10,851 nt of DNA from Candidatus Poribacteria bacterium (lineage in GTDB: Bacteria > Poribacteria > DTPJ01 > WJIO01): the NCBI GenBank assembly GCA_014730235.1, contig WJIO01000073.1, positions 1 to 10,851 of the forward strand. Direction: 5' to 3'. Positions 2,764-6,620 of this stretch are shown here, in pieces; within the stretch, counting starts at the first letter, position 1; each line of letters opens with the position of its first letter. The position numbers and the translations under genes are program-made. Below the pieces are notes generated by a model. That model had not been told where the DNA came from, searched no databases, and was given only the letters and a program-made list of their open reading frames with translations.

Positions 2764-2779
2764 TGTCAATTTTTGACAT
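2763..2779. promoter_or_regulatory. 17-bp palindrome overlapping a -35 box, candidate operator
   Basis: ATGTCAA (2763-2769) and TTGACAT (2773-2779) are exact reverse complements around TTT. The right arm contains the TTGACA -35 box of the downstream promoter, so a dimeric regulator bound here would compete with RNA polymerase. The left arm starts on the last base of the MFS stop codon. Alternatively the similarity to a palindrome is chance, as the -35 box fixes six of the seven positions in one arm. Confidence 0.4.
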
Positions 2780-2801
2780 AGCTTTGGATTTGTGATATAT
2801 T
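2773..2801 (+). promoter_or_regulatory. Near-consensus sigma70-type promoter with extended -10
   Basis: TTGACA at 2773-2778, a spacer of exactly 17 bases, then TATATT at 2796-2801. TGA precedes the -10 box, forming an extended -10 (TGn). The predicted start is near 2808, giving a leader of about 55 bases before the LysM-YjbH gene. This is the best promoter in the window. Confidence 0.8.
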
Positions 2802-2861
2802 TTACTGTAAGAAAATACATTTTTTGCGCTTTAACTTGCTTAATACAGAGGTATCCAATCC

Positions 2862-4922
2862 ATGAATAAAATTATAAATACAATAACTATAATACTTCTT
2901 CTGGCATTTCCCCTCATGGCTCAGGAAAAGGGTGAAAATAAAGACATATATGAAGTCTCTTATGTATTGCACACAGTCCAAAAGGATCAAACTCTATGGC
3001 GAATTGCCTCAATTCATTATAAAAAAGGCAATCTGTCTGAGATTATAGCGAATTTCAATGATATTAAGGATGTGACGGATATTGAAATAGGCACAGACCT
3101 GAAAATACCCCAGCTAGAATTCTATAGAGTCCAGAAGGATGATACCCTTGAATCAATATCAGAAAAGTTTTTTAAAAGCAAAGACAATGTTGAATATATC
3201 ACCAGATTTAATAAAATATCAGGATCTGGCACATTGAAAATTGGTCAGAAGCTAAATATACCTGTATTGGTCAGGAAAAAAGTTGCTGAAGTTGAAGAGG
3301 CTGAAAAAGAAGAAGAAGCTACTGAAATATTGAAGGATTTGAAAAAGAAAGAAGAAAAACAAAAAAATGAAATTAAAGTTGATAAAGTTGAAAGTGAACA
3401 GGAAACACTTTCTGAGATACCAGAAGAAGAAAAAATAGAAGAACCTGATGTAAGTATTAAAGAAGAGGTAAAACCGGATATTGATACTAGGATAATTAAG
3501 CAAGAGTCTGAAAAAGATAAACCCCAGATCAAAGACCTTGAGACAGTTAAAACTGAAGTAAAATCCGAAAATACAATTACAGAACCAGAGATCAAAGGGG
3601 CACAGAAAGAAGTAGATATTGAGACTGAACCGGAAATAAAACAGGAAAATATTGAAAATACTGAAGAACCGGAATTAGGGATTGTAAAAAATCCAAAACC
3701 AATTGGTAAAGATGTTAAGAATATTATTAGTGAAATGCCAAAGGGCAAAACCCTCGCCCAACAGCGCATTGAAGGATATTTGAAGGAAAGTGAAATCGCA
3801 CCAACTCTCGCAGAACATGGTTTTGAAAACGTCTCTGTAGCTTCTGAGGGTGATTTTATTTCCATAACTTACGAAAACAGGATTTACCGGCATGAGACAA
3901 AAGCCATAGAGGAAGTTTTAAATATTTCCGCTCCTTTTATAGACAAACAGAAGAATATTCTGATAATACCTCAAAATCGAGGAATTCCTCTGGTGTCCGT
4001 AATAAAAAGTACAGTATCACCTCCATTATACACAATTGCCAGTAAAAACAAGTCTAATTCTCCGGGATTTACGGCTTCCATTGAAACCCACACTGAATCT
4101 ATGAAAAAATACGGTAATCCAAAGCTAAATTCCCCTGCATTTATGCTGGATATTACCATAGAACCACAGTTTAAAGCACATTTTGGCAGTCATCGCGAAT
4201 CAATCGCCACCCAATTTAATCTTGCCCCTACAGCCGATCTTAATCTATGGAAGGGAATGTCCATTCTTGGTCAGATGATAATACCCATACAAAATGAGTT
4301 TGGTGAGGAAGATGATTACTGGAGACCGGGAATCCTCGCTGCTAACCAGATCCTGCGTCTGCCTTTTAAGACTTTTGTATCTACAACAGCAGGCTATTTC
4401 ACAGAAAATCGCTATGGTATTGATATGGAGATCAGAAAATACTTTTTTAATGGTTCTCTGTATCTGGGCGCAGATGGCGGATATACCGGATATGCTTCAT
4501 ACTTTAAGGGTAACTGGCAGTGGGAAGATGTAGATTTGCTAACTGGTACAGCAAACGCAGGATTTCGATTGTCTCCTTTTGATTTAGTTCTGACAGCAAA
4601 ATATGGAAAATATCTGGAAGCTGATACAGGATGGCGTTTTGAAATGCTCCGTCAGTTTGGGGAACTGGATCTGGGTTTTTTTGCCATCAAGACCGATATA
4701 GGCTTTAACGGCGGTTTTACTATATCTATACCTTTATTTCCACCCAGATACATACCTACCGGGCCCATCCGATTCGGCCCATCCAAGAATTTTTCATGGG
4801 AATATCGCTACAGAAGAACAACAAAAGAGGCTATAGAATATAAAACAGGTAATAGCATTGACAATTTTATAGAACACCTTAATCCAGCTTATGTGGAAAA
4901 TCAGCTAAAAGATTATCAATAA
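2862..4922 (+). CDS. Secreted LysM-domain protein with C-terminal YjbH-like (DUF940) outer-membrane barrel
   Basis: 686 residues. A cleavable signal peptide occupies about 1-20 (basic start, hydrophobic run, then MAQ-E). Two LysM-type domains follow, about 36-84 (VQKDQTLWRIAS... IGTDLKIP) and 88-135 (VQKDDTLESISEKF... IGQKLNIP); LysM binds peptidoglycan or chitin-like glycans. Residues 138-290 are a Glu/Lys/Pro-rich, probably disordered linker with EPEIK copies. From about 300 the sequence resembles YjbH/DUF940: an E-HGFENVSV...YENRIYRHE segment, then a long beta-rich region with aromatic-glycine strands (GADGGYTGYASYFKG) and a GGFTISIPLFPPRY segment near 617-630. YjbH belongs to exopolysaccharide operons in proteobacteria, but no yjbEFG partners are present here. 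The likely location is the outer membrane with the LysM part in the periplasm. ATG has CAGAGG 10 bases upstream. The barrel call is by motif recall only. Confidence 0.8.
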   Translation: MNKIINTITIILLLAFPLMAQEKGENKDIYEVSYVLHTVQKDQTLWRIASIHYKKGNLSEIIANFNDIKDVTDIEIGTDLKIPQLEFYRVQKDDTLESISEKFFKSKDNVEYITRFNKISGSGTLKIGQKLNIPVLVRKKVAEVEEAEKEEEATEILKDLKKKEEKQKNEIKVDKVESEQETLSEIPEEEKIEEPDVSIKEEVKPDIDTRIIKQESEKDKPQIKDLETVKTEVKSENTITEPEIKGAQKEVDIETEPEIKQENIENTEEPELGIVKNPKPIGKDVKNIISEMPKGKTLAQQRIEGYLKESEIAPTLAEHGFENVSVASEGDFISITYENRIYRHETKAIEEVLNISAPFIDKQKNILIIPQNRGIPLVSVIKSTVSPPLYTIASKNKSNSPGFTASIETHTESMKKYGNPKLNSPAFMLDITIEPQFKAHFGSHRESIATQFNLAPTADLNLWKGMSILGQMIIPIQNEFGEEDDYWRPGILAANQILRLPFKTFVSTTAGYFTENRYGIDMEIRKYFFNGSLYLGADGGYTGYASYFKGNWQWEDVDLLTGTANAGFRLSPFDLVLTAKYGKYLEADTGWRFEMLRQFGELDLGFFAIKTDIGFNGGFTISIPLFPPRYIPTGPIRFGPSKNFSWEYRYRRTTKEAIEYKTGNSIDNFIEHLNPAYVENQLKDYQ

Positions 4923-5099: not shown

Positions 5100-6620
5100 A
5101 TGCTAAGAATAGTCAAAAATACTAGGATTTTAAGGTATTTGGCTTTGCTGGTGTTAATTACAACCTTAAGTTCCTGGCCCGTCATGGGTAGGGTAAGAAC
5201 CAGCAGTTTCGACGTTTCTTATATATGGACTTCACATCTTGGTAAAGCGCTTATTTGTTTGAAACAGGTTGGATCGGTATTAGATTACAATTCCAGGAGA
5301 AAACTTCGTCTCGTTAGAGAATCTTCTGGTAATTACGGTGCTATATACGATTTAAACGGCGATAAAGCATCGGCTATGGCTGTTTTGCAAAAACACGCAG
5401 AATTACTTAAAAACACTGAGCTGGATTCGGCTTCTGTTGTAGAGGACGCTGGTTATCATGATTTATACAATATTAGCTATGGACTGGGGCCAAATCTGGA
5501 AGTACAGAAAGAAAATTATAAAAAGATTGTCCGTATATTGGGTAGGGAAGTGGGCAGAAATTTAGTGATTCAGAAGACTGCTTATGGAAATTATGCCTTA
5601 ATATACATAAGAAGGGGTGAAGAACAATCAACCAGAAGCGTTGCCCGTAGACATTCTAAATTACTTAGATCAGTCAGGCTTAGGGCTGCCATAATCCGGG
5701 AAAATGTAAACAACGATGTTATATATAGCCAAAGTCTTGGAAATGTTCCTGAAAGCCTTTTAAAAATTCCCATCAAACCGGAAAAAACTATAAGAAAAAC
5801 AAAGGTTGAAAAACCCAGAGTTCAAGCCCCACAGGAAAACCTCAGCCTTCAGGAACAGATCGAAAGATATGTATCAGATCTAAAACGCACAAGAACAATT
5901 TCCCAAAATGATAAATTCTCTTGTTCCGTATACGATTTTACTACTGGAAAGAAAGTAGTATCCATCAACGAAGATATACCACTGCAATGCGCCAGCATGT
6001 TTAAACCCTTTGTGGCTCTTGCCTTCTTTCATCAGGTTAAAAACGGTAATATGATATACGGTCCAAAAAGCAAAGCCAAGATGAAAGCCATGATCCAGCG
6101 CAGTAGAAATACTGAAACAAATTGGGTTATGAGACAGCTTGGTGGGCCAGCTAAAGTGCAGGATATCTTAAAGACTAACTATAGTGGTATATTTACCGAT
6201 ACAATAATTCGTGAGTATATCCCCAAAGGTGGTCAGACTTACCGTAATAAAGCCTCAGCCCACGACTATAGTCGTTTCTTATATGCCATGTGGAATGGCA
6301 ACCTTCCATATTCCATCGAACTGCGCAGATTGATGGCCCTACCAAATAGAGACAGAGTTTGTATGGGTGCAAAACACGTACCCAGTGCAACCCTGGTTTA
6401 CGATAAGACTGGCAGCACAGCATATCTTATCGGTAACATGGCCATTCTTGTAGCAAAAGGGAAAGATGGCAAGCGTTATCCCTACACACTAATCTGTATA
6501 ATACAGAAATCACGAAGGGCATCAAACTATACAGTTTGGAAAAATAAGGCCAGTAATATTATCAGAGAGGTATCAAATAAAGTCTACATTGACATGAAGA
6601 AACGCCATAGACTTATATAA
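5100..6620 (+). CDS. Secreted protein with duplicated SPOR-like repeats and a beta-lactamase-like serine hydrolase domain
   Basis: 506 residues. Residues 8-30 form a signal peptide or N-terminal anchor (basic start, LALLVLITTLSSWPVMG). Two 86-residue repeats follow (about 37-122 and 123-208), matching without gaps: GNYGAIY/GNYALIY, a later His (99/185), LL (102-103/188-189) and V-S-Y/I-S-Y at their starts. They vaguely resemble SPOR domains. After a basic, Pro-containing linker (220-248), residues 250-497 resemble the class A beta-lactamase/penicillin-recognising fold: S299-M-F-K302 as SxxK, S335-R-N337 followed by TETNWVMRQLGG in the place of SDN, and K436-T-G438. No EPELN motif with the deacylating Glu is visible, so efficient penicillin hydrolysis is doubtful. 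A cell-wall peptidase or a penicillin-binding role is as likely; this is inference. ATG has a weak AGGGG about 12 bases upstream. It converges on dnaJ with 43 bases between and no obvious terminator. Confidence 0.8.
   Translation: MLRIVKNTRILRYLALLVLITTLSSWPVMGRVRTSSFDVSYIWTSHLGKALICLKQVGSVLDYNSRRKLRLVRESSGNYGAIYDLNGDKASAMAVLQKHAELLKNTELDSASVVEDAGYHDLYNISYGLGPNLEVQKENYKKIVRILGREVGRNLVIQKTAYGNYALIYIRRGEEQSTRSVARRHSKLLRSVRLRAAIIRENVNNDVIYSQSLGNVPESLLKIPIKPEKTIRKTKVEKPRVQAPQENLSLQEQIERYVSDLKRTRTISQNDKFSCSVYDFTTGKKVVSINEDIPLQCASMFKPFVALAFFHQVKNGNMIYGPKSKAKMKAMIQRSRNTETNWVMRQLGGPAKVQDILKTNYSGIFTDTIIREYIPKGGQTYRNKASAHDYSRFLYAMWNGNLPYSIELRRLMALPNRDRVCMGAKHVPSATLVYDKTGSTAYLIGNMAILVAKGKDGKRYPYTLICIIQKSRRASNYTVWKNKASNIIREVSNKVYIDMKKRHRLI

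Follow-up and report, generated by a model that had tools for sequence, protein, structure and literature searches.

A LysM pair joined by an acidic linker to the C-terminal half of YjbH in a Candidatus Poribacteria genome: a candidate wall-anchored outer-membrane portal

Barrels of the outer membrane that bind the cell wall are already known, both as fusions with LysM (the inverse autotransporters) and as other wall-anchored barrels (OmpM). Ties between the outer membrane and the wall have been recognized in a few lineages, by way of Lpp, Pal and OmpA, and of OmpM. For GfcD and YjbH, we know of no experimental demonstration of an export function. These two E. coli proteins are double barrels, in which a 12-strand barrel at the N-terminus and a 13-strand barrel at the C-terminus flank a middle domain in the periplasm (GfcD-M in GfcD; PMC8592465, PMC9603273, PMC11494523). 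The C-terminal barrel of GfcD (GfcD-C) has been described as a 14-strand topology whose last strand is missing, with an opening between strands 1 and 13, and it has been proposed, with simulations, to be a portal for a polysaccharide or lipid-linked glycan (PMC11494523). Experimental precedents for wall binding come from other families. In E. coli YeeJ, LysM-dependent peptidoglycan binding of an outer-membrane barrel protein has been shown (PMC5595812), and OmpM, a barrel with a wall-binding SLH domain, can be the main tether of the outer membrane (PMC10628300).

The window analysed here is the entire contig WJIO01000073.1 (C438) of 10,851 bases, and both of its ends are contig ends. A single uninterrupted open reading frame at 2862–4922 on the plus strand encodes a 686-residue protein with the following features.

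2773..2801, plus strand: promoter-like site TTGACA-17-TATATT with TG before the -10 (consensus scan, 11/12 matches)
2847..2851, plus strand: AGAGG, ribosome-binding-like site 10 nt before the ATG (sequence read directly)
2862..2921, plus strand: predicted signal peptide, residues 1–20, MNKIINTITIILLLAFPLMA (sequence read directly)
2970..3110, plus strand: LysM domain 1, residues 37–83 (PF01476, 33.4 bits, E 3e-7)
3123..3263, plus strand: LysM domain 2, residues 88–134 (PF01476, 42.5 bits, E 4e-10)
3273..3749, plus strand: acidic Glu/Lys linker, residues 138–296, 159 residues (composition; pLDDT of the full-length model)
3750..4121, plus strand: predicted periplasmic α/β domain, about residues 297–420, matching the GfcD/YjbH middle domain (PF06082 profile 269–449; helices and strands of the model; hhalign from residue 314 of E. 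coli YjbH)
4146..4727, plus strand: predicted outer-membrane β-barrel, 13 strands, residues 429–622 (AlphaFold2, strand alternation, VIA)
4758..4922, plus strand: post-barrel tail, 54 residues (633–686), with W-Y, TG, and L-P motifs partly conserved in the consensus of 41 relatives

The promoter-like site falls in the 98-bp gap between the upstream MFS gene and the LysM–YjbH gene, but as a real start signal it is suggestive only, since 13 such sites were found in the region by the consensus scan against 8.9 expected. Direct reading revealed no lipobox Cys in residues 1–20 of the signal peptide.

The sequence-only reading had placed a signal peptide, a LysM pair, a Glu/Lys linker, and a YjbH-like outer-membrane barrel in one protein. 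The continuous frame and the Pfam matches bear out this architecture: LysM (PF01476) was matched in two domains with a whole-protein E of 8.3e-18 (64.5 bits vs. a cut-off of 20.9), and YjbH (PF06082) was matched at residues 299–625 with an E of 4.1e-15 (56.1 bits vs. a curated cut-off of 24). The relationship to YjbH is upheld, but the protein is not a whole YjbH. The match spans positions 263–619 of the 658-position profile, i.e., only the second half with the middle domain and the C-terminal barrel, and the N-terminal 12-strand barrel of the full-length double barrel is missing. A profile built from 41 relatives aligned with residues 314–656 of E. coli YjbH with a probability of 97.2% and an E of 3e-11 (hhalign). 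The linker consists of 25% E and 18% K, with zero aromatic residues and a net charge of −17. Its pLDDT in the full-length model is mostly <50, except for a helix at residues 144–179, and it is probably disordered or partly helical. The full-length model is weak (pLDDT 47, LysM not folded), and the LysM part was not judged from it.

The barrel that had been expected at the C-terminus was modelled by AlphaFold2 as 13 strands after a small α/β domain, but with modest confidence (pLDDT 60, pTM 0.47) and from a shallow alignment of four sequences. The in–out alternation of hydrophobicity in the barrel strands was 2.51, in comparison to 1.35 ± 0.28 for shuffled strands, and 0 of 2000 shuffles were as high. 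The best structural match of the barrel model in VIA is the 14-strand porin OmpG (Z 13.1), which fits the 14-strand topology, less its last strand, of GfcD-C. In fourth place is the exopolysaccharide transporter PelB (9h80; Z 11.8, 3.6 Å for 189 residues), and many further barrels match the model, including general porins and OmpM1 (8bys, Z 10.2). Foldseek alone gave low TM-scores of about 0.3. Since PelB shares this list with OmpG and general porins, the substrate is not given by the fold alone.

The protein thus resembles YjbH/GfcD of E. coli (PF06082) in its middle α/β domain, its C-terminal barrel with 13 modelled strands as in GfcD-C, and the tail after the barrel, at a position where GfcD carries a plug-like tail (PMC11494523). 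It differs in lacking the N-terminal barrel and in carrying the LysM pair and the acidic linker. With the stalked porins OmpM/SlpA of diderm Terrabacteria, it shares a peptidoglycan-binding domain, a stalk or linker, and a barrel in one chain and in the same order (PMC10628300). Yet it has LysM instead of SLH, of which there was none among its Pfam matches, a linker of acidic, low-complexity sequence where OmpM has a coiled-coil stalk, and the barrel of a YjbH C-half. The inverse autotransporters intimin and YeeJ also carry a periplasmic LysM at the N-terminus, ahead of an outer-membrane barrel (PMC5595812). In contrast to these, the window protein has two LysM domains, a long acidic linker, and a barrel of another family. 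Furthermore, no domain that could form the extracellular passenger of a type Ve protein was matched after its barrel, where only 54 residues follow.

The gene is preceded by that of an MFS transporter and followed by that of a secreted class-A β-lactamase-like hydrolase (PF13354); beyond these lie dnaJ, dnaK, and grpE on the opposite strand. No polysaccharide gene, OPX protein, or YjbH N-half gene was found on the 10.8-kb contig. The hydrolase, a serine enzyme at 5100–6620 of the window, has an SxxK motif (SMFK), and its N-terminal region resembles a twofold repeat with no Pfam match; its N-terminal 230 residues gave no SPOR match even at E 5. At 624–1226, the window encodes a diverged receiver domain of the response-regulator type (PF00072, below cut-off), preceded by a long, charged N-terminal stretch. 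The genome has a second DnaK copy (G000:C134:1823-3778), which shares 77% identity with the window copy. The contig DnaK shares 77% identity with its counterpart in a same-order genome and 64–73% with those of most others. Since these identities fit the phylum, the contig is unlikely, as judged from this sequence comparison, to be a contaminant.

Unlike the yjbEFGH/gfcABCD system, the window gene has no neighbour matching the yjbE, yjbF, or yjbG families in Pfam on its 10.8-kb contig, and the GfcC/YjbG family (PF06251) is absent genome-wide, with the E. coli positive control being detected. The earlier observation that yjbEFG neighbours are missing therefore stands, but its weight does not, because half YjbH proteins without yjbEFG are ordinary in relatives from KSB1 and Bacteroidota. 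It is the LysM fusion that is the unusual feature, since none of the 50 C-half genes read with their flanks has LysM, while stand-alone C-halves are ordinary in those groups; the design is indeed uncommon, as had been suspected. The survey for LysM–YjbH fusions covered the own phylum, KSB1, and Bacteroidota, all outside the Pseudomonadota. Among 84 genomes of the own phylum, C-halves occur in this genome only, in three copies; the two besides the window gene, on contigs C27 (40% identity) and C176 (26%), are among the 50 without LysM. A scan of named genomes also located C-halves from candidate division KSB1 and one Bacteroidetes MAG, and wider searches showed them in the KSB1 phylum (22 of 82 genomes), in Bacteroidota (18 of 345), and in one Bacteroidota class (16 of 391), the last two sets overlapping. 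No relative was found on viral contigs. Pfam analysis of 41 C-halves detected LysM only in the window protein, and the tree of these 41 pairs the window gene as a sister with the C27 paralog, which has no fusion (support 95/89), so that gain or loss of the LysM part followed their divergence.

The stand-alone C-halves of KSB1 and Bacteroidota have the same middle domain and barrel, share 25–41% identity for most, and are likewise separate proteins rather than double barrels. N-halves of YjbH occur as stand-alone proteins on three contigs of the own genome and in many relatives. For 18 of the 50 C-halves, unlike the window gene, an N-half gene lies on the same strand within the flank read, and in 11 of these cases it is within 300 bases. 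Two-gene arrangements, in which the C-half and N-half genes often lie side by side or share a 4-base overlap, are seen in KSB1/Bacteroidota at L067:3-1822, L079:1387-3360, L095:1216-3365, and L068:332-3940. From these sequences, the proteobacterial YjbH/GfcD looks like a fusion of separate C-half and N-half genes.

Another protein of the same genome carries a similar N-terminal region. On contig C368 (L055:6644-13537), a 2297-residue protein combines an N-terminal LysM pair and an acidic Glu/Pro/Lys linker with the body of a SprA/Sov-like T9SS translocon, which matches TIGR04189 with an E of 9e-54 at 182 bits, below the 200-bit cut-off. The two LysM pairs are 33% identical over 103 residues without gaps (E 3e-18), whereas none of the remaining LysM proteins in the genome matched the window protein at E 1e-3. 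The two proteins are therefore alike in LysM pair and acidic linker, but differ in the barrel that these precede. Of the 84 genomes in the phylum, 83 have SprA-like giant barrels; almost all of these score under the curated cut-off, which suggests a divergent phylum-wide T9SS-type translocon. Thirteen relatives were fetched, and LysM was absent at or near the N-terminus of the 12 that could be read there, the thirteenth (L139) beginning inside the gene. Given that homologous LysM pairs precede a YjbH C-half and a SprA-like barrel, and that the 12 SprA-like relatives read there have no LysM, the LysM module appears to be reusable, having been joined in this lineage to two outer-membrane barrels of unrelated families. 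A limited literature search found no published LysM–YjbH or LysM–SprA fusion; LysM together with YjbH returned only the unrelated staphylococcal YjbH.

Collectively, we hold with moderate confidence that the window protein is a YjbH/GfcD C-half barrel that is secreted to the outer membrane, has acquired a peptidoglycan anchor, and serves as a polysaccharide-export portal. In the mechanism that we infer, the protein would be exported by Sec and its barrel would insert into the outer membrane, where the small α/β domain would lie at the periplasmic entrance of the pore. Owing to the flexibility of the acidic linker, the LysM pair would be able to reach peptidoglycan and bind it. In line with the proposal for GfcD-C, the barrel would most likely let through a polysaccharide or a lipid-linked glycan, and the LysM anchor would fix the portal to the wall and add to the tethering of the outer membrane. 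This reading is supported by the modelled α/β domain followed by 13 strands, an arrangement that agrees in domain order and number of strands with the published GfcD-M and GfcD-C (PMC11494523), together with the Pfam matches to two LysM domains and YjbH, the hhalign match to E. coli YjbH, and PelB among the structural neighbours. A link to polysaccharides is also consistent with the surroundings of other YjbH halves in this genome. The C27 paralog (L050) is near an Acyl_transf_3 gene, and an N-half barrel on contig C433 (L052:799-11530), preceded by a lipoprotein-like gene, is near an MBOAT O-acyltransferase and two ALGX-domain proteins, possibly a polysaccharide-acetylation locus. Against it speak the contig with no polysaccharide gene, the barrel model of pLDDT 60, the poorly modelled LysM part, and the similar Z values of many barrels. 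Peptidoglycan tethering by the LysM pair can be soundly inferred from the domain itself and from the analogues OmpM, intimin, and YeeJ; the homologous pair on the SprA-like barrel and the experimental precedents of YeeJ (LysM) and OmpM (SLH) also argue for a wall anchor.

The protein might instead act mainly as an outer-membrane tether like OmpM, in which case the barrel would be a foot in the membrane or a general porin, and no polysaccharide would be exported. A peptidoglycan-binding domain, a flexible stalk, and a porin-like barrel reproduce the OmpM layout, general porins and OmpM1 are among the structural neighbours, and a second barrel in the genome bears the same anchor. We nevertheless consider this role unlikely: by sequence the barrel belongs to a polysaccharide-linked family, the LysM-less paralog L050 of the same genome would be expected to need an anchor too, and OmpM uses SLH, which is reported to be absent from Gracilicutes (PMC10628300).

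The LysM pair could also be a receptor for the exported glycan, capturing periplasmic chains that contain N-acetylglucosamine and feeding them to the barrel. Other exporters, such as PgaA and BcsC, have periplasmic glycan-handling domains ahead of the barrel. LysM generally binds N-acetylglucosamine-containing glycans, not only peptidoglycan (PMC5595812). This is quite improbable, as the same LysM pair sits on a SprA-like protein translocon, where capture of an exported glycan makes no sense, and feeding a pore does not need a 159-residue disordered linker. Finally, although the 5.5-Mb assembly is fragmented (451 contigs, contamination 4.8%) and the fusion was not found in a second genome, an erroneous joining of a LysM gene and a YjbH-half gene in the metagenome is very improbable, because the frame is continuous through the junction, comparison with a set of other loci of the genome showed no common repeat of more than 17 bases, a second LysM–linker–barrel gene exists independently in the same genome, and the contig DnaK fits the phylum.

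With the wall-anchored portal as the preferred reading, the two fusions of this genome tentatively raise a broader idea, which we consider possible but doubtful: a modular peptidoglycan anchor, consisting of a LysM pair and a long acidic linker, may have been grafted onto unrelated export barrels, so that the secretion portals themselves would be links between the outer membrane and the wall. In KSB1/Bacteroidota, the two parts of the proteobacterial double-barrel YjbH/GfcD are two separate, often adjacent genes, and the division of labour proposed for the two barrels thereby becomes genetically testable. If a LysM anchor is truly common to two unrelated export barrels, it would represent another solution to the tethering of the outer membrane, one that couples the tether to secretion.
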